Shown here: positions 27,185-63,450 of the stretch, one piece after another
Layout of the letters: each line of letters starts with the position of its first letter
How positions within the stretch are numbered: position 1 is the first letter of the stretch
Source of the DNA: an uncultured Elusimicrobia bacterium
GTDB lineage: Bacteria; Elusimicrobiota; Elusimicrobia; UBA1565; UBA9628
Length of the DNA stretch: 64,000 nucleotides
Reading direction: 5' to 3'
Assembly (NCBI GenBank): GCA_903830945.1
Contig: CAIKVT010000013.1
Location: 1 to 64,000, forward strand
Notes under the pieces: model-generated
Seen by the model: only the letters and a program-made list of their open reading frames with translations
Databases searched by the model: none
Told to the model about the DNA's origin: nothing
Translations under genes and position numbers: made by a program

Positions 27185-30100
27185 ATGAGACGATTTATCG
27201 TCCAAGTATTACTCGGCTCCATGCTCTCCCCCGCGTTTGCCCAAGCCCCCAAGACCCTCAAAGACTACGACGAGCGCTTCGACAAAGGCCTCTACCAGGA
27301 AGCGCTCAAAGGCTATGAGTCTTTACTCGATTCCGCGCAAGAGGATATCCGCCTCAAGGCCCTCTACCGCTCTGTCGAATGCGAGGCGCTCCTGTTCCGC
27401 TTCGGCGCGGCCGCGACGCGAGCTATGGCAAAAAAACTGCCCAAAGACCCGATCTGGCGCGGACGCTTCCTCATCCAAAAGGCGGAACTGGCGCGCGAGT
27501 TCCTCAAGCAGTACGGCACCACGGTACCACGGGATATGGAGGCCGGAACCAATGATCTCACCCGCCGCACTCCAGAGGAGTGGCACCAGGAGGCACAGTC
27601 CGCCTTCCTGCAGCTCTGGGATCTACGCGGCGATCTCGTCAAGACCCCCATCTCCGGCGAAGACTATTTCGTGGATCTCAAGGGCGCCGAAACCGACATG
27701 GCCCCCACGCTCTGGGACTTCGCGGCCCTGCGCTGGACCGACTATCTCCTCACCGAGGCGCCGGAGGCGCCGCACCAGTCCGAGCAGAATCCCCCGGCGA
27801 CCTCCTTCATCCGCCCGGATTACCCTGAGGCCTTTTCACCCGGAGCCCCGCCAGCGGCCCAGGCCGCGGCCGTGATGGAAGCATCCTCCCGCCTGCCCAA
27901 GCAGGGACGAGGAGCCGCTTCCGAGGAGTGGCGGATCCGCCGCCTGCTCATCCCGTTCGAACATTCCGGACTCGTGTCGCCCGCCACTGATGATGAAGCC
28001 TCGGTCACAGCCGCGGTCTCGCTGCTCACGGGCTGGATGGACTCCTTCTCCGAACCGCCGGCCAAGGCCCAGGCCGGCCTGGAAGCCGCCCAGCTCCTCA
28101 ACGCCCGCAACCGCTATGCGGACACCGTGCAGCTCTGCCGCAGGATAGAAAGAGTCTGGCCCCTCTCCCGAGCCGCGCGCCATTGCGCGAGACTGCGCGC
28201 CCAGATCGAACTGCCGGTGCTCAACCTCTTCGCGCGCTTCACCCCCCCGCCCGGCAAGGACGCCTTCACCGTGAACACGCGCAACCTCGACTCGGTCTAT
28301 TTCCGGCTCTACCGGCTCGACCCACGGGAGCTTCCGGCACGCACTCTCCGTCACGAACAGCAGGATTGGAGCGCTCTGCGCCATCCGGACCGCGAGCTCA
28401 TCGCGGCCTACATGAAGCGCAGCCCGGACTTCTCCTGGAGGGCCGCGGTGAGCACGCACGCAGCCTACGCATACGCGGACACCACGGTCTCGCCGCCCAC
28501 ACTCGGCCCCGGCCTCTATCTCGCCCTAGCCGGCGGCGACGAGCGCTTCACGCCAAAAAACTCGCTCTTGTCCGTGGCCATCGTCAACGTGACCGAGCTC
28601 TTCCTCATCACGAGCGCGGGCGCCCAGGGCCCGGAGCGCGACTTCATCTTCGACCCGGCCGGCCCGACCCAACGCACGGCCCCGGCCCTGCATTTCTATA
28701 CGATCGACGCGGTCAACGGCCAAGCCACGGCCGCTTCGCTCGACGCCTTCCGACGCGAGAACTGGAATCCCATCGAGCGCCTGTCTTTGGCCACGGACGG
28801 CTCAGGCATGACTCAAGCTCAAGCGACCGTGCCCCTGACCTACCCGACCAGCTACAGCGTCTCCTTCGACGCCCTGGCCCAGGCCGGCGCGTCCTATGCC
28901 TACGGCAGCAACCCTGTGTATTTCAGCCATTCCGTCCCGGCTCCCATCGAGGTTCATGTGGAGACGGATCGGCCCATCTACCGCCCCGGCCAACAGGTAC
29001 GCGCGAAGGTCACCGTGTTGCGCCGCATCCCCCGAGGCTACAAAGTCTATGACGGGGCCGCTCCGGTGTCCTTCACGGCCCGCGATGCCAACTACCAAGA
29101 GATTTTTAAAAGACAACTCAAGCTCAACGCACTGGGCAGCGCTTCCGTCGCCTTCACCATCCCCACGGGCCGGCTGCTGGGCGAATACCGTCTTGAGGCC
29201 GCGATTACAGACTTCCATAACGGTTTTTCGGGCAACGCCCAGCTCGCCGTAGAAGAGTACAAGCGCCCCGAGTTCGAAGTCACGGTAGCCGAGGCCACGG
29301 GCGCCTGGAAATATGGCCAGGCCGCGATGATCGCAGGCCAAGCCAAATACTACTTCGGAGGGCCGGTGCCCGATGCGCCGGTCTCCTTCCACATCTACCG
29401 GCAAGCATATCTCCCGTGGTTCTGCTGGTGGTGGCGCGGGTCCACCGCTCAACTGAACGGACGGACCGAGGTCTCTTCCGGCCAGGCCAAGACCGACGCC
29501 GCGGGCAGATTCTCCTTCCTCTTCACTCCCCAGCCTCAGGACGCCGCGCTTAAGGACCCCTGGCCGGCGACATTCCAGGTCGAGGCCGAATCCCACGACG
29601 CGGGCGGACGCACCATCACCGCCTCGCGCTCTTTCCAGGCCGGCGCCAAGGCCTATCTCTTCGACATCTCGCCCGAGTCCGGCTTCTTGAGCGCGGGCAA
29701 GCCGGCCAAGGTGCCGGTGCGGCTCATGAACATCAATGGGGCCGCCGTGGCCGGGGCCGGCGAGTACTCCTTGTACCGTCTCTCGGGACGACCCCAGGAT
29801 GTAGAAAGCGGACACTATTGGGAAGGCCATTTCCCGGAGACGCCATCTCTGGAAACGATTTACAAGGATGTCCCCAATGGCGCCAAGGTGGCGGGCGGGA
29901 ACCTCAAGTTCCTGGCCGACAAGCCCGCCGCGGCGACTCTGGGTGGCCTGGAAGACGGAGCCTACCGCTTCACCGTCCGTGCCCATGATCATTGGGGCGG
30001 CGCCAGCGAAGAATCCATCATCCTGCTCTGCGCGGCCCCCAAGGGCCGGCTGGCCTTGAGCCTGCCGGCCGTGGCCATCCCGGAGCATGCCTCCTACCTC

Positions 30101-33100
30101 CCTGGAGAGACCGCCCGCTTCCTGCTGGGTTCGGATCTTCTAGACGGGAGCGTGTTCGTGGAGATCTGGGGAGGCCAGCACCTGCTGGAGCGTCGAGCCT
30201 TGGGCGGCGGGGTGCGCCTGGTGAGCGTCCCGGTGACCGGAGACCACAAGGGCGGACTGACGGTGCGCTGGTTCGGCGCGCGCAGTTTCAAGATCCGCTC
30301 CGGTCAGGCTCAGGTGGCGGTGCCCTGGAAGGACCGCGAGCTCTCGGTCAAGCTCGACTACGACAAGGTGATGAAGCCCGGCCAAAAGGTCCATTGGAAG
30401 CTCTCCCTCCTGGACCGCGCCAAGAGGCCGGTGAGCGGCGAGGCCGTGGTGCGCGTATTCGACCGGTCGCTCGAATACTACGCCGCTGCCGCGAGCCCCT
30501 GGCTCTCCGAGCTCTACGGCGCGCGCGGCGGTCCCCAGGCCGGCCAGGGCTCGCTTTTTACGCCCAACGTCGATCAGATCCCCGTGGAGGAAGGCTGGAT
30601 CAAGACCATGCTCAACCTCTTCTACGAGGCCATCAAAGAGCCGGAGCCGCCCATGTTGCGCCTCAACCGCAGTCGCGTCTATAGCCGGCACAACTACAGG
30701 AGCAAGTCGCTCATGTATGATATGGAGAGCACCGCTTCAGGTGGCGCGGCCATGGACATGCTTGAAGCCGCGCCCGCAGCCCTGTCCATGGCCGAAGTGC
30801 GCGGCAGCGCGCCCCAAGAGATGGCCAAGGACAAGAAGTCCCTGGTCGGCGCAAAATCAGACAGCGAGCGGCCAAGCCAGCCTCCGGTCGCCGTGCGCAC
30901 GGACTTCTCCGAGACCGCGTACTTCGAGCCGCAGTTGAAGATAACGGCCGGCCGGGGCACGATCTCCTTCAAGGCCCCGGATCAACTCACCGGCTGGAAG
31001 ATCCAGGTCAGCGCGCTGACTTCGGACGTCAAGCGCGGATCGTTCGGCGGCGAGGCCGTGACCCGCAAGGACCTCATGGTGCGCGTGGACATGCCGCGCT
31101 TCTACCGAGAAGGCGACCAAGGGGAGATCAAGGCCGTGGTCCACAACGAGACCGAAACAGAGCTCTCCGGTGAGGTGACGCTCTCGGTCACCGAGGACGA
31201 GAAGCCCTCGGCCGAAAAGCTGGGCCTGGCGGACCTGACCAAACCCTTCATGGTCAAGCCTCATGGACTGATACCTTTGACCTGGACTCTCAAGGCTCCG
31301 CGCGGGCAGACCTCGTTCAAGATCCGGGCCGTAGCGCGCTCGGGCGAGAAAGCCGACGCGGAAGAGCGCGAGCTCCCGATCTTGCCCTCGCGAGAGCGCC
31401 TCATCGAGACCGCACTCATCAGCCTCGACGGCACGGTAAAAAAGGCGCTCCAGGCCCCAAGATTCAAAGAGAAAGACGAGACCCGGGTCAACGAGTCCAT
31501 GACCGTGCAGATCGACCCCCAACTCGCGCTCTCCATCCTCAACAGCCTGCCATTCCTGGTGCACTACCCCTACGAATGCAGCGAACAGCTCATCGACCGC
31601 TACACGCCTTTAGCCATCACCAACGCCTTCTACAAGATGAACCCCAAGCTGGCCGCGGCAGCCAAGAAGATCCCCAAGCGCGACACGCTCACCCCGGCCT
31701 GGGACCGCTCCGACCCCAGGCGGCTCATGACTTTGATGGAGACGCCGTGGGAAGAACTCTCCAAGGGCCGCAAGAGCTACTGGCCATTGGTCGACATGTT
31801 CGACACGGCCGTGGTCAAGTCCGAGCTCGACGACGCGCTCTCCAAGCTCAAGAGCTACCAGAACAGCGACGGCGGCTATCCGTGGTTCCCGGGCGGCCAT
31901 TCCGACCCCTACATCACGCTCTTCGTGCTTTCAGGATGGGCCGAGGCGGCGCGCTACGGGGTCGCAGCCCCCATGGATGTGGCGGCCCGTGCCTTGGGCT
32001 TCGTCAACAACGAGGTTCCCAAGCACTTGAAGCCTGAACCGGGAGAGGTTTCCCTCATCCTCTACGCGGCCCATGTAGTGACCTCGTACCCAAAATCCCT
32101 GCCCGAGGCGGCCCTGGGCTACAAGTTCGCCAAGGTCTGGGCCGACTACGCGGACAAGCACGCCGACGCCATGACCCACATGGGCAAGGCCCTGGCCGCC
32201 AACGTCTACTGGCGCCTGGGCGACAAGGCCAAAGGCGACTTATACCTCGCCCGGGCCATGGACGGCTCCCGCGAGGACCCCATCGCCGGAGTGTATTGGA
32301 CGCCGGAGAAGATCTCCTGGCTCTGGTACAACGACACGGTAGAGACCCATGCCTTCATCCTCAGGACTCTCTTGGCCATGAAGCCCAAGGACCCGCGCAT
32401 CCCGGGCTTGGTGCAATGGCTGCTGTTCAACCGCAAGGGCAACGAATGGAAGTCCACCAAGGCCTCGGCCGCGGCTATTTACTCCTTGCTCGACGTGCTT
32501 AAGACGCGAGGCTCTTTGGACCAGGGCGACCGGTTCACGGTCAAGTGGGGGCCGGACGTGGAGACGGCGCAAGTCGAACCCTTCGCCTGGCTGGAGAAGC
32601 CCTTGCGCTGGACGCGCGTGGGCTCGGCCATCACTCCCGGGCACGGCACGGCCTCCATCGAGAAAGAAGGGCCGGGCCTGGCCTTCGCGTCCTTGACCTG
32701 GATCTACACCACAGACCGGTTCGCTGCGGCCTCCGGCCCCGGCATGATGGAGCTCTCACGGCATTTCTTCCTCCGGCAGAAGGAAGGCGACGCCTACCGC
32801 TTGACGCCGCTGAAATCAGGCGACGTGGTCGCGGTGGGAGACCAGGTCGAAGTCCAACTCACGATCAACACGCGCAGCCAGTTCGAATACGTACACCTCA
32901 AAGACCCCAAGCCCGCGGGCTTTGAGGCCGAGGAGCTGCGCAGCGGCTGGAAGTGGGACCAGCTCTCGCGCTACGAGGAGCCGCGGGACTCCCTGACCAA
33001 CTTCTTCATGGACCGGGTCCCGCACGGCGAGTACATCCTGCGCTACCGGCTGCGCCCAACCACGCCCGGCTCCTACCGGCTGGGCGCGGCGGTGCTGCAG

Positions 33101-33163
33101 TCCATGTACGCGCCCGAGATGTCCGCGCACTCCGACGGCTTCTCCATCCGGGTGCGGCCCTGA
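27185..33163 (+). CDS. Alpha-2-macroglobulin family protein with thioester motif
   Basis: A 1992-residue bacterial alpha-2-macroglobulin, thought to trap attacking proteases in the periplasm. The signal peptide 'MRRFIVQVLLGSMLSPAFA' has no lipobox, unlike the lipoprotein YfhM of E. coli. The order is an N-terminal helical region with repeats, MG-type beta domains (for example 'VETDRPIYRPGQQVRAKV'), a long macroglobulin core, and a thioester domain where 'PYECSEQLIDRYTP' gives CxEQ with C1465 and Q1468. An alpha-hairpin toroid and receptor-like C-terminal domain follow. GGAGG precedes the ATG and TAGTAT (27152-27157) is a possible -10. No pbpC partner gene lies nearby. Confidence 0.93.
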   Translation: MRRFIVQVLLGSMLSPAFAQAPKTLKDYDERFDKGLYQEALKGYESLLDSAQEDIRLKALYRSVECEALLFRFGAAATRAMAKKLPKDPIWRGRFLIQKAELAREFLKQYGTTVPRDMEAGTNDLTRRTPEEWHQEAQSAFLQLWDLRGDLVKTPISGEDYFVDLKGAETDMAPTLWDFAALRWTDYLLTEAPEAPHQSEQNPPATSFIRPDYPEAFSPGAPPAAQAAAVMEASSRLPKQGRGAASEEWRIRRLLIPFEHSGLVSPATDDEASVTAAVSLLTGWMDSFSEPPAKAQAGLEAAQLLNARNRYADTVQLCRRIERVWPLSRAARHCARLRAQIELPVLNLFARFTPPPGKDAFTVNTRNLDSVYFRLYRLDPRELPARTLRHEQQDWSALRHPDRELIAAYMKRSPDFSWRAAVSTHAAYAYADTTVSPPTLGPGLYLALAGGDERFTPKNSLLSVAIVNVTELFLITSAGAQGPERDFIFDPAGPTQRTAPALHFYTIDAVNGQATAASLDAFRRENWNPIERLSLATDGSGMTQAQATVPLTYPTSYSVSFDALAQAGASYAYGSNPVYFSHSVPAPIEVHVETDRPIYRPGQQVRAKVTVLRRIPRGYKVYDGAAPVSFTARDANYQEIFKRQLKLNALGSASVAFTIPTGRLLGEYRLEAAITDFHNGFSGNAQLAVEEYKRPEFEVTVAEATGAWKYGQAAMIAGQAKYYFGGPVPDAPVSFHIYRQAYLPWFCWWWRGSTAQLNGRTEVSSGQAKTDAAGRFSFLFTPQPQDAALKDPWPATFQVEAESHDAGGRTITASRSFQAGAKAYLFDISPESGFLSAGKPAKVPVRLMNINGAAVAGAGEYSLYRLSGRPQDVESGHYWEGHFPETPSLETIYKDVPNGAKVAGGNLKFLADKPAAATLGGLEDGAYRFTVRAHDHWGGASEESIILLCAAPKGRLALSLPAVAIPEHASYLPGETARFLLGSDLLDGSVFVEIWGGQHLLERRALGGGVRLVSVPVTGDHKGGLTVRWFGARSFKIRSGQAQVAVPWKDRELSVKLDYDKVMKPGQKVHWKLSLLDRAKRPVSGEAVVRVFDRSLEYYAAAASPWLSELYGARGGPQAGQGSLFTPNVDQIPVEEGWIKTMLNLFYEAIKEPEPPMLRLNRSRVYSRHNYRSKSLMYDMESTASGGAAMDMLEAAPAALSMAEVRGSAPQEMAKDKKSLVGAKSDSERPSQPPVAVRTDFSETAYFEPQLKITAGRGTISFKAPDQLTGWKIQVSALTSDVKRGSFGGEAVTRKDLMVRVDMPRFYREGDQGEIKAVVHNETETELSGEVTLSVTEDEKPSAEKLGLADLTKPFMVKPHGLIPLTWTLKAPRGQTSFKIRAVARSGEKADAEERELPILPSRERLIETALISLDGTVKKALQAPRFKEKDETRVNESMTVQIDPQLALSILNSLPFLVHYPYECSEQLIDRYTPLAITNAFYKMNPKLAAAAKKIPKRDTLTPAWDRSDPRRLMTLMETPWEELSKGRKSYWPLVDMFDTAVVKSELDDALSKLKSYQNSDGGYPWFPGGHSDPYITLFVLSGWAEAARYGVAAPMDVAARALGFVNNEVPKHLKPEPGEVSLILYAAHVVTSYPKSLPEAALGYKFAKVWADYADKHADAMTHMGKALAANVYWRLGDKAKGDLYLARAMDGSREDPIAGVYWTPEKISWLWYNDTVETHAFILRTLLAMKPKDPRIPGLVQWLLFNRKGNEWKSTKASAAAIYSLLDVLKTRGSLDQGDRFTVKWGPDVETAQVEPFAWLEKPLRWTRVGSAITPGHGTASIEKEGPGLAFASLTWIYTTDRFAAASGPGMMELSRHFFLRQKEGDAYRLTPLKSGDVVAVGDQVEVQLTINTRSQFEYVHLKDPKPAGFEAEELRSGWKWDQLSRYEEPRDSLTNFFMDRVPHGEYILRYRLRPTTPGSYRLGAAVLQSMYAPEMSAHSDGFSIRVRP

Positions 33164-57622: not shown

Positions 57623-59638
57623 ATGAACACCGCACAGACAAAATCTTTGCCCGACAACGCCTACGAACCCTTACAGCCCGGAGATGTCTACAAGCCGATG
57701 GTCCCCCCCGCAGCGACACTCCCGGAGGCAAGCGCCCGCTCCGTGGGCTGGGGGCTGCTGTTCTGCGTCCTTTTCACCGTGGCCTCAGTCTACTCGGGGC
57801 TGAAGGTCGGCCAAGTCATGGAGGCGGCCATCCCCATCTCCATCCTGGCCATCGGCATGGCCCGACTCTACAAGCGTCAATCGAGCCTTCTCGAGAACGT
57901 CATCATCACCGGCATCGGCGGGGTCTCCGGCGCGGTGGTGGCGGGAGCCATCTTCACGCTCCCAGCCCTCTACTCCTTGCACCTCAACCCGCACCCCCTG
58001 CAGACCATCTTCATCTGCCTCTCGGGCGGTTGTCTGGGAATGCTCTTCCTCATCCCCCTGCGCCGATATTTCGTGCGGGAGATGCACGGCGAGTTCCCCT
58101 ATCCCGAAGCGACCGCCATCACCGAAGTTCTGGTGACCGGAGAAAAGGGCGGCGCCCAAGCGCGCCTGCTCCTGGAAGCCACGGCTATCTCAGGGATCTA
58201 TGACCTCGCCGTCACCACCTTCCAGCTCTGGAAGGAGACATTGGATTTTCAGTTCCTCCCCTCCATGCGCGCCCTGGCCGAGCGGGCCAAGGTCGTCGTC
58301 CGGTTCGACGCCATCTCCTTCATCTTAGGCCTGGGCTACGTGATGGGCCTGCGCTCATCCATGATCCTCTGCGCGGGTGGGTTCCTGGCTAACTTCGTGC
58401 TGGTTCCTCTCATCTGGTTTATCGGCCGCGGCTCTCTAGCCGCAGTCTATCCGGCGGCCAAACCCATCGCGCTGATGACCGCCAACGAGATATTCCGCAA
58501 CTACGTGCGCTACATCGGCGTAGGAGCCATCGCCACAGCCGGGATATTCGGCATCTTGAAATCCCTACGCATCGTGGCGGGGTCTTTATCAATCGCGGTC
58601 AAGGCCTTCCGCCAGGGCGAAAAGAAAGCCGGCATCGAACGCACGGACCAGGACATCTCCATCATGAGCATACTCGCAGGCGTAGGGTGCGCCGCTCTGG
58701 CCACGGCGGTCTTCTTCGGCACGCTGGAAACCACGTGGCTCATCGCGGCCGTTGGACTCGGCTTGGCTTTACTGTTCTCATTCTTCTTCACGTCGGTGGC
58801 GGCCAACGCCATCGCGACCACGGCCCGCAACCCGGTCTCGGGCATGACCATGCTCACCATCATCGTATCCAGCGTGGTCCTTCTGCGCTTCGGGCTCTCC
58901 GGCACCACAGGGATGTTCTTCGTCATGGCCATCGCGGGGATGGTCTGCACGGCCCTCTCCGTCTCCGGTCAGGCCATCACCGACCTCAAGACCGGCTACT
59001 GGCTGGGCTCCACACCGGCGGTGCAGCAACGGGTGAAGTTCCTGGGCATCATCGCGGCAGCGGCGGCCGCGGGCCTGACCATCGTGATACTCGCCCAAGG
59101 GGGCTACTTTTTCGGCGACGCGCCAGCGGGCACGCCCGAGAAGATGGTCCTGGCCGCCCCACAGGCCTCGATCATGAAAGCCCTGGTCGAAGGGTTCATG
59201 AACCGCCAGCCCGTAGTCTACCTGCTCTTCGGCGCCGGCGCGGCCGTGGCGGTCCTCCTGGAGATGCTCCAGGTCCCGGCTCTGACCTTCGCTCTGGGCA
59301 TGTACCTGCCGCTCGAACTTAACACGCCCGCCTTAGTGGGCGGCATCCTCAATCACTTCGTGACCGAACGCGCGGCCCAGCACAAGGGCGAGACGGGCCG
59401 AGCTATCCGGGAACGCGGCGTGGTCATCGCCTCGGGCCTGATGGCGGGCGGCGCCTTGGGCGGAGTCCTGGGCGCGGCCTTGTCCATGGTGCCGCGCTTC
59501 AAGGACTGGGCCCTGACGCACGCCACCCCTTTCTACGCCATGGAATCCTGGTCCCAGACACTGTCGCTGCTCTTCTTCGCGGGCCTCTGCGCCTACCTTT
59601 GGTTCAGGTCCATCAACCGGGACTCAGCGGCCGTCTGA
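57623..59638 (+). CDS. OPT-family oligopeptide transporter
   Basis: A 671-residue polytopic protein of the OPT family (proton-coupled uptake of small peptides or metal chelates). About 15 membrane segments are seen. 'EFPYPEATAITEVLVTGEKG' is the diagnostic bacterial OPT motif, with 'YSGLKVGQVMEAAIPISILA' earlier. AGGAGG precedes the ATG. Its likely operon partner is the PPC-domain protein. With the POT transporter at 34109 it gives the cell two peptide-uptake routes, though the substrate of this one is not known. Confidence 0.92.
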   Translation: MNTAQTKSLPDNAYEPLQPGDVYKPMVPPAATLPEASARSVGWGLLFCVLFTVASVYSGLKVGQVMEAAIPISILAIGMARLYKRQSSLLENVIITGIGGVSGAVVAGAIFTLPALYSLHLNPHPLQTIFICLSGGCLGMLFLIPLRRYFVREMHGEFPYPEATAITEVLVTGEKGGAQARLLLEATAISGIYDLAVTTFQLWKETLDFQFLPSMRALAERAKVVVRFDAISFILGLGYVMGLRSSMILCAGGFLANFVLVPLIWFIGRGSLAAVYPAAKPIALMTANEIFRNYVRYIGVGAIATAGIFGILKSLRIVAGSLSIAVKAFRQGEKKAGIERTDQDISIMSILAGVGCAALATAVFFGTLETTWLIAAVGLGLALLFSFFFTSVAANAIATTARNPVSGMTMLTIIVSSVVLLRFGLSGTTGMFFVMAIAGMVCTALSVSGQAITDLKTGYWLGSTPAVQQRVKFLGIIAAAAAAGLTIVILAQGGYFFGDAPAGTPEKMVLAAPQASIMKALVEGFMNRQPVVYLLFGAGAAVAVLLEMLQVPALTFALGMYLPLELNTPALVGGILNHFVTERAAQHKGETGRAIRERGVVIASGLMAGGALGGVLGAALSMVPRFKDWALTHATPFYAMESWSQTLSLLFFAGLCAYLWFRSINRDSAAV

Positions 59639-59813
59639 GCCGGCCTTAACCGGCAGAAACGTCGGAAGCATACAGTGGAACCGGCTGCACGAGCATCTTT
59701 ATCTCCGTAGCACCGTTCCACATGGTCGCGTCCGAGGGTCTTGCTTCAAGCACCTCACCGCATCTACAGGGGCTCAGGTTCCGGCCCGGCCCTTCCGCGC
59801 CGCTGATGGAGTT

Positions 59814-62800
59814 TTAAAATTTGTGGTGCAGGGCGGCCTCGACGCTGTGCTCTTGGAAGTTCGAGCGATAATCGCCGCTGTAAACGAGCTTAGCCGTCGT
59901 CTGCTTGGTCCAGGACAGCAGGAATCCCGCTCCAACCAAGGTCCCATCGTGAGCGAAGTCTCCGGTCCGCACCGAAAACTGGCTCCCCCCGCCAATGGCC
60001 AGTGACGCGTCTATGGGGCGGCCTTGATCCTCGAACTCATGACGCCATCCCAAGCTCAGGTACGGTTTCCAGGAGCGCGGTCCATCAGCGAACAGCTTGG
60101 CAAAACGAAGGCCGAGGCTCGATTTTAGGGACTGCGAAGTCTGCGGAGCCACGTCGAGATTCAAAGTGTCCGCGCCGCTCTCCATGAACCCTCCGATCAT
60201 CAGTCTATTGTAGTCCAACCCAGCGAAGGGCGAAACGGTCCCTCCGGCGAGCGCCTGGATGTCATAGCTGGCGCTCGCGCTCGTGTTGAGCTCTTTGCCC
60301 AAAGGCGCGGCCTCAGCCGTGCGCGAGATCTGACCGAATATGATGCCGCGCCTCGTCTTGTAGAAGTCCAACGCGCCTCCCAGGTAAAGACTGGCGTGCA
60401 GGTTCTCAACGGAGCCCGTGCCATAGACGCCGAGGCGCGCGCTGTCGTCCTCCACCAAGCCGGAGCCGGGTGAACTGATCGAGGCATAGCCGTGAAGATA
60501 GCCGGCCAATGCGCCGGCCGCGAGATGGTCGTCGAGACGGTAGTCGGCGCCAAAGGTCAGTCCCGCCGTGGTGAAAGCATAGCCGGGCTGGGTACCGGAG
60601 CCGCTCTCGGCCTCGCTGAGCCGGCCGGTGGTGAATACTCCTGCCGTGTAATAGCCCCAGGGCGAGTCCGCGTCTTCGTCCGTGGCGGTACCGCCGAGGC
60701 CGAGTCCGCTGATATCCTGGCCCGCATAAGCGAGCAGCGTTCCGGGATAGGGCGAGGTCCCGCTGACCGTGTAGGAGGCGAAGCTTCCGCGCTCGACCGA
60801 GCCGTCGGCGAGCGCGGTCAGGCGCTGACCGAGCGCGGCGGATTGCGCGCCAGCGGCCGCCATGCCGATGCCGCTCATAGAACCTAGCGCGACGGGACCG
60901 ATCTGGTCGAAGGCCGCCCGCAGCTGCGGCGCGTAGAGCGTATAGAGATTGCCCAAAACCGTGGCGGCGTCACCTGTGGGATTGCCGCGCAGCGGCTCCA
61001 GCGCATTGGCGACGGCGGCCTGGTTGTCGCCCGCCGCGCTGTCGACGAAGGGCACGAGGATGGTGGTCAGAACCACCTTCTTAGAGACGTCATCGTAGGT
61101 CGGAGCGAATGAAAGCGCCGCAGGTGAAACGATGCTCGCGAAGGTCCCGGTCCTGCCTCCGTAAAGGATCGGGATGAATATGTCTCCGCTGTGCACGATT
61201 TGCGGCGTCAAGTTCACGGCCAATGTCCCGCCCGTTAAATCCGCGTTATTCGTGACGTGGAAGCTATTCGCGCCGGGCTGCAGCGTCACTCTTAGGATTC
61301 CGGCGCCGCTGTAGCTGCCAACGGTTTGCACGCAGCCTGCCGTATCGAAGGCGCCGCCGGAATACACCGCGAGCGCCCCGACTGTCGGCAAAGCGTCGTC
61401 GGCTCCGACTTGAAGCGTCCCGCTGTTTACGACGGTACCGCCAGTGTAGCTGTTGTCGGTCCCGGACAGAACGATCCTCCCGCCTCCGACGCTGTCGGCG
61501 ATCGTCAAGACGCCGTGGACGGCGGCGCCGTCGGCGAAGACGCCCGAGAAGACGGATGCCTGGCCGTGGGCATCCAGAGTTCCGCCACCCGCGCCCAAGA
61601 CCACGCTCCGGGCTGACGCCACGGCCGCGGACATCCGCAGGGTTCCGCCATCGAAGTATAGGCCGCTGGCCAAGGCCCCCAAGCTGGCATCCTGAGTGAT
61701 ATCGACGATGCCGCCGCCGAGATACGTTCCCCCCGTATATGACGCGGCACCGCGCACGGTCAGCGCTCCCGGCCCGGTCTTGTAGAGGTCGCCGGGGCCG
61801 TTGAATATCCCATTATTGGTAAACTCGTTGTCCCCGGCGCCGAACCAGAGGCTCCCCGAAACGACGCCGGAATTGACGAAGGCATTGCCGGTGCCCAGGA
61901 ATTTTACCGCGTAGGAGTCAGTCCCGGATGCGCGAAGTGTCCCCCGATTGATGAAGGTGTTGCCGTCTCCCTGTGCCAAGAAGGCGATGCTGTTCGTCCC
62001 GGACACGGCGACCACGCCGCGGTTTTCGACGGTGTTCCCGGTGTTGACGCGTATCCCCCACAAACCCTTCGAGTCTCCGGTGATGCTGCCGGCCGCCGTG
62101 TTCGTGATCGTATTGCGGTCATAAACGTGGATACCGTTGCCGCCGGACATCGGGGCGATAACGCCGGAATTGACGATAGTGTTGTCGTCGACGGCATCTA
62201 TGCCAGTCAGAACGTTGCTTATGGAAGAGAGGTTGGTAATGGCATTATCACTTGCGGCCAGAATTCCTGTAGGCCGCTGCTCCAGCGGGTCCGGCGCAAT
62301 GGCGGCCGCGTTAACGATGGCGGCGTGGCTTACTCCGCTGACGTCGAAATACTGGAACCTATCGATGGATCGATTGAACTGGTCGAGGACCGTCACCGTG
62401 ACTTCTCTGCCTTCGATAGACACGACAGCGTAGTTGTAGCGGTCGTCAACGACGACATCCCCCGGTTCGACTGGGGCCGGCTTGCAGGTCGGGTCGTCCT
62501 CACATCCCAGGGGCGCGCCTCCAGTCCCGGCCAATACCTCATATGTGCCGTCGCGCAGGGTCCGATAATAAAGGTGTTGATGGCCGGCGAACAGGATCGA
62601 GGCATTGGCGTTTTCGGCATCGCCTGACGTGGTTATCGTCCGCCACGTGTCCTCCATATTCTGTTCTGTCGAAGGCATGAAGGGAGAGTATGCCGGGATG
62701 TGGGTGAAGACGAAGGTGTGAGCGGCCGTGTTGTCTTTTAAGAGGCCTTTCATCCAATCCTGCTGCGCGGCATTAATGCCGTAAGCCGGTTCCGAGCCGT

Positions 62801-63314
62801 CCGCCGTGGCGTAATAGCTGTCAGCGATGATGAAGAGAGAATTGCCCATATGGAATGAAAACGCCAGGTTCGTGAAGCCGGCGGGACCGTTCTGCGTCCA
62901 GCCGCCGTTGAAGAGAGCCTGAAAATCCTGTTGTCTCGACAAGGCTTCATCGGCGAGGTTAGGGGCGTGGTGCATCGTGTAGAGTTCATGGTTACCCACG
63001 GCAAAAGCTGAAGGGATGCCTTTGGCGTCCAGGCGATCCGTAAACTCGGTCATGAAATCCGTCAGGTTGGCCGTGCCGCCTCTGTAGGCCGCGTCGCCGC
63101 CGAAGATCACCACTTGGGGGGCGGGGTCCAGGGCGAGGATGCTGTTCATGATGGGGTGGAGAACATCCTTGTCTATGACGACAGCGTTCTCATCGCCTCG
63201 AGTGTCCGCCACCCACGCAAAAGTCTGCGATTGCTCCGCATGCAAGGAAGCCGCCCCGCAGGCGAGCATAAAAGCGAACAAGAATAGCCTAAGAAGGAGT
63301 ACGGGCTTCCGCAT
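59814..63314 (-). CDS. Autotransporter with metallophosphoesterase passenger
   Basis: A 1166-residue type V (autotransporter) protein. After a signal peptide ('MRKPVLLLRLFLFAFMLACG', cut near LHA/EQ) comes a calcineurin-like phosphoesterase domain (residues about 30-310): 'VADTRGDEN', 'VIFGGDAAYRGG', 'AVGNHELY', 'FTHIPAYSP' and 'FAGHQHLYYR' are its five metal-site blocks. A beta-solenoid with short NTITN-type repeats and two autotransporter repeats ('GGTYLGGGIVDI', 'GGTVVNSGTLQVG') follows. The last 280 or so residues form a 12-strand barrel ending 'HHKF'. The start is chosen by the signal peptide; 29 upstream codons are not signal-like. TATAAA about 40 bases upstream is a possible -10. Confidence 0.93.
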   Translation of the reverse strand: MRKPVLLLRLFLFAFMLACGAASLHAEQSQTFAWVADTRGDENAVVIDKDVLHPIMNSILALDPAPQVVIFGGDAAYRGGTANLTDFMTEFTDRLDAKGIPSAFAVGNHELYTMHHAPNLADEALSRQQDFQALFNGGWTQNGPAGFTNLAFSFHMGNSLFIIADSYYATADGSEPAYGINAAQQDWMKGLLKDNTAAHTFVFTHIPAYSPFMPSTEQNMEDTWRTITTSGDAENANASILFAGHQHLYYRTLRDGTYEVLAGTGGAPLGCEDDPTCKPAPVEPGDVVVDDRYNYAVVSIEGREVTVTVLDQFNRSIDRFQYFDVSGVSHAAIVNAAAIAPDPLEQRPTGILAASDNAITNLSSISNVLTGIDAVDDNTIVNSGVIAPMSGGNGIHVYDRNTITNTAAGSITGDSKGLWGIRVNTGNTVENRGVVAVSGTNSIAFLAQGDGNTFINRGTLRASGTDSYAVKFLGTGNAFVNSGVVSGSLWFGAGDNEFTNNGIFNGPGDLYKTGPGALTVRGAASYTGGTYLGGGIVDITQDASLGALASGLYFDGGTLRMSAAVASARSVVLGAGGGTLDAHGQASVFSGVFADGAAVHGVLTIADSVGGGRIVLSGTDNSYTGGTVVNSGTLQVGADDALPTVGALAVYSGGAFDTAGCVQTVGSYSGAGILRVTLQPGANSFHVTNNADLTGGTLAVNLTPQIVHSGDIFIPILYGGRTGTFASIVSPAALSFAPTYDDVSKKVVLTTILVPFVDSAAGDNQAAVANALEPLRGNPTGDAATVLGNLYTLYAPQLRAAFDQIGPVALGSMSGIGMAAAGAQSAALGQRLTALADGSVERGSFASYTVSGTSPYPGTLLAYAGQDISGLGLGGTATDEDADSPWGYYTAGVFTTGRLSEAESGSGTQPGYAFTTAGLTFGADYRLDDHLAAGALAGYLHGYASISSPGSGLVEDDSARLGVYGTGSVENLHASLYLGGALDFYKTRRGIIFGQISRTAEAAPLGKELNTSASASYDIQALAGGTVSPFAGLDYNRLMIGGFMESGADTLNLDVAPQTSQSLKSSLGLRFAKLFADGPRSWKPYLSLGWRHEFEDQGRPIDASLAIGGGSQFSVRTGDFAHDGTLVGAGFLLSWTKQTTAKLVYSGDYRSNFQEHSVEAALHHKF

Positions 63315-63418
63315 TCCCAAACAGCTTCCAATCGTTAATCTGTCGTGTTTATAGGAAAGATTACGCCACTTTGGCCAAGTCGCTGCGCCAACCAATTCCA
63401 CGGAACCTCCCTACCTTC

Positions 63419-63450
63419 CGACTTCGGGCCCCCGAGGGGGCCTGAAGTCG
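63419..63450. other. Strong hairpin upstream of the autotransporter gene
   Basis: A 15-base-pair stem with a single G-T pair (63419-63433 with 63436-63450) and a two-base turn. No T run follows on either strand. It could end the MliC-like transcript, protect an mRNA 5' end, or act in the leader of the autotransporter mRNA. Confidence 0.55.

Follow-up and report, generated by a model that had tools for sequence, protein, structure and literature searches.

The 64,000-nucleotide stretch of DNA analysed here (the window), which comes from an Elusimicrobiota bacterium, carries a gene that probably encodes a type Va autotransporter holding a purple acid phosphatase (PAP)-like enzyme head at the cell surface. 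Its head and the adjoining collar form a module shared with a protein of Thiodictyon and joined to a barrel native to Elusimicrobiota, and the most likely role is in phosphate supply. The gene lies on the minus strand (63314..59814) and encodes a protein of 1166 amino acids; the enclosing open reading frame is 59814-63401 on the same strand, and the start was chosen at 63314 (MRKPVLLL...). A preliminary description had placed a phosphoesterase, a repeat solenoid and an autotransporter barrel in one protein at 59814-63314. These coordinates are right, and the combination is found by Pfam, with matches above the curated cut-offs to Metallophos (PF00149, residues 63-248, 1.3e-7), PATR (PF12951, residues 610-636) and Autotransporter (PF03797, residues 900-1145, 6e-45). 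From the Pfam matches and the sequence, the order of domains is signal peptide, metallophosphoesterase head, PATR repeat solenoid and autotransporter barrel.

The putative signal peptide, residues 1-26 (MRKPVLLLRLFLFAFMLACGAASLHA; 63237..63314, minus strand), contains a hydrophobic run with a mean Kyte-Doolittle value of 2.26 over residues 5-24. It ends ...LHA/EQSQ, and the Thiodictyon homologue has an identical A/EQSQ junction. These features, together with the conserved cleavage site, indicate that the protein starts with a predicted N-terminal Sec signal peptide. A strong GC-rich inverted repeat (ACTTCAGGCCCCCTCGGGGGCCCGAAGT) without a T run lies a very short way upstream of the GTG codon at 63401, at about 63400-63440 on the minus strand. 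A scan at the gene found neither a sigma-70-like promoter nor a terminator above chance.

To characterise the enzyme head (residues 27-325; 62340..63236, minus strand), we used an alignment of 21 rows comprising the window protein and 20 relatives from the phylum. The Metallophos match begins at profile position 28 and thus omits the first 27 positions of the profile, leaving block I outside the match, and block I was therefore examined by alignment. Seven metal-ligand residues were identified in the head: D37, D74, Y77, N108, H205, H245 and H247. Of these, all except Y77 are invariant in the 21 rows, as is H109. All the ligand blocks lie on the minus strand. Block I supplies D37 (ADTRG; 63204..63206), which pairs with the GDLG of the PAP structure 6gja; block II the bridging aspartate D74 and the PAP-type tyrosine Y77 (GGDAAY; 63084..63095); block III N108 and H109 (GNHE; 62988..62993); block IV H205 (FVFTHIP; 62700..62702); and block V H245 and H247 (GHQH; 62574..62582). 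Tyr77 sits three residues after D74, at the position of the PAP tyrosine, and many of the 20 relatives have no tyrosine there. In block I, which reads D37-T-R, the metal-binding aspartate is present and the histidine of the canonical DxH motif is absent. PAPs likewise lack this histidine. The preliminary description was thus correct that all five metal-binding blocks are present, but by sequence their arrangement is that of PAPs and not that of calcineurin: the head contains the whole PAP ligand set of D, DxxY, N, H and HxH. It does not contain the PAP block I pattern DxG, since the glycine is replaced by arginine, as in 11 of the 20 aligned relatives; because of this departure we call the head only PAP-like.

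When a profile of the head alignment was compared with the PDB, solved PAPs matched at 3e-36 and every block paired with a PAP ligand block. An AlphaFold2 model of the head, made with the same alignment, had a pLDDT of 83.8 and a pTM of 0.89. The top 28 Foldseek matches of this model were all PAPs or PAP phytases (E about 1e-14), with moderate TM-scores, normalised by query length, of about 0.61-0.71 and rmsd values of 4-8. Structure prediction thus gave a PAP fold and no sign that the metal site fails to form. Compared with PAPs (PDB 6gja, 1kbp, 1ute and others), the head has the fold and the ligand pattern in common. It differs in having DTR for DxG, in the absence of a second-sphere histidine after block IV, in an identity of only about 13-18% in fold alignments, and in being fused to an autotransporter. 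After block IV the window protein reads HIPAYSPFMPS, and the histidine found in many relatives (HxPxYSTGxHG) is missing. With block I also lacking its histidine, the head may depart from PAPs in its rate, pH optimum or substrate. The same two departures, and the presence of GAP50, a PAP-fold anchor protein, among the fold matches, would suit an adhesin-like head with a degenerate active site, serving in binding or as a structural module rather than as an enzyme. We consider this very unlikely, as all seven metal ligands are kept in both the window protein and its Thiodictyon homologue at 67% overall identity. The head is therefore best read as a predicted purple-acid-phosphatase-like binuclear metal phosphatase, and the surface metallophosphatase of the preliminary description is supported, at the level of prediction, by sequence, fold and anatomy.

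What had been described as a repeat solenoid consists of two parts, a collar (residues 326-545; 61680..62339, minus strand) and a PATR beta-solenoid stalk of the resident type (residues 546-755; 61050..61679, minus strand). The collar is a repeat region whose only counterpart was found in Thiodictyon, at 64% identity. In a full-length AlphaFold2 model (mean pLDDT 71.8, pTM 0.58), residues 325-450 of the collar were of low confidence, because just one homologue is known, and the solenoid from about residue 530 to 755 had a pLDDT mostly above 90. The stalk is followed by an alpha-helical linker and a flexible segment (residues 756-885; 60660..61049, minus strand), modelled as helices at 756-836 and a loose, low-confidence segment at 837-882. 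The model places the start of the barrel at residue 886 (residues 886-1166 and the stop codon; 59814..60659, minus strand), and the protein ends, after the PF03797 barrel, in the aromatic residue F1166. The barrel, the beta-solenoid passenger and the alpha-helical linker together identify the protein, on sequence and modelled structure, as a predicted type Va autotransporter.

The top Foldseek matches of the barrel were EstA, AaaA, EspP, Hbp and NalP. The closest folds, EstA (3kvn) and AaaA (9oqa) of Pseudomonas, also belong to surface-held enzymes, although their heads are an esterase and an aminopeptidase respectively, and EstA, unlike the window protein, has no solenoid stalk. By analogy, the likeness to these two barrels hints that the head may stay tethered. 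Export through Sec, insertion of the barrel, folding of the passenger outside the cell and a distal position of the N-terminal head are established autotransporter biology. On this scheme the window protein would be exported by Sec and its C-terminal barrel would insert in the outer membrane. The passenger would then thread through the barrel and the PATR solenoid fold outside as a stalk, with the head at the far tip, probably still tethered.

The closest relative of the head among GTDB contigs was a 1372-amino-acid autotransporter from a metagenome-assembled genome (MAG) of an uncultured Thiodictyon sp., a purple sulfur bacterium of the Gammaproteobacteria (CAILVI010000543.1, locus L113). It was obtained with a three-sequence head alignment as the query, whereas a full-length query gave no match. 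The heads are 66% identical, while the next GTDB-contig match is at 27%, and enzyme relatives after Thiodictyon are about 27-34% identical and lack a barrel. Identity is 67% over about 519 amino acids of head and collar, and 61% over window residues 7-602 (69% for DNA, over 1.6 kb). The two proteins share the signal peptide, head, collar, all metal ligands, PATR repeats and a C-terminal autotransporter barrel. They differ in the barrel and linker, which are about 26-34% identical in a forced alignment, in the larger number of PATR repeats in the Thiodictyon protein, and in its C-terminal leucine in place of phenylalanine.

The change takes place in a junction zone at residues ~560-600 (61515..61637, minus strand), where similarity switches from Thiodictyon to the resident Elusimicrobiota autotransporters. 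Past this zone, identity to the Thiodictyon protein drops to about 25-50%, and beyond residue 700 to 25-35%; an enzyme-free autotransporter of the window genome becomes the closer match there, at 50-64%. The case for a chimeric origin rests mainly on the conflict between the phylogenies of the two parts. In the head tree, the window and Thiodictyon sequences form a pair (100/100) whose nearest neighbours are another Thiodictyon relative and Solidesulfovibrio (98/93); most Elusimicrobiota enzymes fall elsewhere. In the barrel tree, the window barrel falls within a 27-row clade consisting only of Elusimicrobiota (100/100), and the Thiodictyon barrel is sister to that of another autotransporter from its own MAG (100/100). 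An HMM search with the filters off scored the Thiodictyon barrel at 46 bits, where the window barrel reached 367, so the two barrels are distant relatives rather than unrelated; default filters missed the Thiodictyon barrel. The two-part ancestry is thus evident from sequence and structure prediction. The Thiodictyon MAG also encodes an autotransporter (L207, contig C268) with a head that is subtilase-like by eye and a barrel close to that of its phosphatase autotransporter; this MAG therefore carries different heads on one barrel type.

The similarity between phyla could also have arisen if the window protein were an ordinary, vertically inherited autotransporter and one of the assemblies had been wrongly binned. 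The Thiodictyon contig, part of a MAG, is just 25.5 kb long, and the assembly that contains the window is broken into 84 contigs. However, the neighbouring gene of the Thiodictyon copy has a counterpart at 79% identity in a close relative and at 66-70% in further ones, and the barrel of the Thiodictyon protein groups with one from a second autotransporter of the same MAG. Equally, the OPT gene adjoining the window copy has counterparts in two same-genus genomes, at 87% and 84% identity, and the window barrel is of Elusimicrobiota type. We regard mis-binning as very unlikely.

It appears instead, from the sequences, that the head was passed between phyla and re-fitted onto a different membrane anchor, with a join inside the repeat region between the head and collar module and a barrel that would be native to Elusimicrobiota; the direction and route of this transfer are what we infer. 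Whether the head and collar are a mobile surface-enzyme cassette that crosses phyla and recombines, through the repeat region, onto the recipient's existing barrel is a question on which we stand slightly to the doubtful side of even. No match was found in plasmid, phage or viral collections, and thus no vehicle for transfer. The head part has a slightly lower GC content than the rest (0.59 vs 0.64; GC3 0.73 vs 0.78). As the two parts are not told apart by codon usage, composition was left out as evidence of transfer.

The gene is part of a lineage-specific stretch that is, by its sequence, an apparent insertion. In both same-genus genomes the OPT gene is directly beside, and convergent with, an amidase gene (named from its sequence). 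In the window genome 13.3 kb separate the two (C13 59638-72952, on the contig that carries the window), with the autotransporter gene first in the stretch. A 76-bp direct repeat (strand not assigned) has its left copy at 59613-59688 and its right copy, 93% identical, outside the window on the same contig (C13 71596-71671), with a 118-bp OPT fragment just before it. This arrangement fits an insertion that would have duplicated the end of the OPT gene; loss in the two relatives is less likely. At the right of the stretch, OPT-end fragments occupy C13 71478-71671 and 72942-72981, and a histidine kinase/response regulator gene separates the second copy from the third; such repeated fragments suggest more than one event at the insertion site. 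No integrase was found among the genes read. Because the barrel is of the native type, the joining of the head module to it may have taken place within the phylum, either earlier or later than the insertion of the stretch.

Surface location, catalysis, substrate and a role in phosphate supply are properties that we infer for the protein. The head would hydrolyse organic phosphate esters that are unable to pass porins, most likely freeing phosphate for uptake. No phosphate-uptake genes were seen beside the window gene. In the main rival reading, a surface enzyme of this kind would serve in interaction with other cells, and neighbours, predators or hosts would supply what it cleaves (extracellular nucleotides, cyclic nucleotides, phospholipids or phosphoproteins). 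Related metallophosphoesterases elsewhere do cleave nucleotides and phospholipids, and two other genes of the same stretch would suit defence or interaction. One of these, at C13 63702-64346 (L003:703-1347), reaches into the end of the window, adjoins the autotransporter gene and encodes a fusion of a chagasin-type (I42) protease inhibitor with an MliC lysozyme inhibitor. The other, at C13 65240-67255 (L003:2241-4256), encodes a secreted, cysteine-rich protein of 671 amino acids with a thaumatin domain (7e-30). Nevertheless, no sequence feature indicates a specific substrate or favours one of those proposed in the preliminary description (nucleotides, phospholipids and phosphoproteins), and the neighbours are only candidate co-regulated genes, and we consider an interaction role unlikely; phosphate supply remains the preferred reading. 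Elsewhere in the region, L003:5934-7583 encodes an ABC ATPase apparently fused to an anti-sigma-like HATPase_c_2 domain, beside an amino-acid-type binding protein and permease, and window positions 27185-33163 encode a bacterial alpha-2-macroglobulin of 1992 amino acids.

The window genome has two autotransporters, the second of which (contig C21) has PATR repeats and no enzyme. Autotransporters are present in 121 of the 235 genomes of the class, and among 36 autotransporters that were scanned, Metallophos was found only in the window protein. Searches with the head against 341 genomes of the phylum gave only standalone enzymes among the matches listed. With a PAP-like profile, run against these and 288 Thiodictyon-related genomes, the long frames among the matches listed had no barrel. 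A search of the window genome with PF00149 did not return the window gene, so plain Metallophos searches can miss such heads. A frame of 1094 amino acids in genome G051 was considered as a second case and rejected, as the actual gene stands alone and a spurious N-terminal extension accounts for the extra length. Across the genome searches, autotransporters bearing this head thus number two, those of the window and Thiodictyon. Two class relatives encode autotransporters (L099 and L102) whose N-terminus looks like a GDSL esterase (FGDSFQD) and gave no Pfam match at 1e-3.

Phosphatase autotransporters as such are known. MapA, the acid phosphatase autotransporter of Moraxella catarrhalis (PMC9289746, PMC3419190), is the single characterised phosphatase autotransporter in reviews (PMC9289746). 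Like the window protein, it carries a phosphatase head on an autotransporter. The MapA head is a class A non-specific acid phosphatase with a metal-free, PAP2-like fold, and belongs to an unrelated family. The window head is a Metallophos domain with no PAP2 match in the Pfam scan, and is therefore not of the MapA type. Phosphatase/hydrolase autotransporters have been grouped as 'PHATs', mainly of the phosphatidic phosphatase (IPR000326), tyrosine phosphatase (IPR029021) and glycoside hydrolase (IPR002772) families; those named do not include metallophosphoesterases (PMC5767081). This is the functional class that the window protein would join, but its head matches only Metallophos and none of the listed families. 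We found no metallophosphoesterase or PAP autotransporter in the open-licence literature, and so no set of characterised proteins with the same layout, although annotations that combine Metallophos with a barrel may exist elsewhere, for example in UniProt or InterPro. The claim that a surface metallophosphatase is unusual therefore holds for this enzyme family, with one case in 36 class autotransporters and two overall, but not for phosphatase autotransporters in general.

The protein is real, well formed and rare, and its most interesting aspect is a head shared across phyla on different barrels. Autotransporters of Elusimicrobiota appear to be unstudied in the open-licence literature, and a PAP-like metallophosphoesterase adds a catalytic family to the short list of enzymes borne by autotransporters. 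It would let a diderm bacterium degrade organic phosphate extracellularly, and the head module offers a natural module for phosphatase display. Because two phyla carry this head on different barrels, and each of the two genomes also has a resident partner autotransporter, passenger swapping can be tested directly in nature. If the head and collar do behave as a cassette, a bacterium would acquire an additional surface enzyme in a single step.
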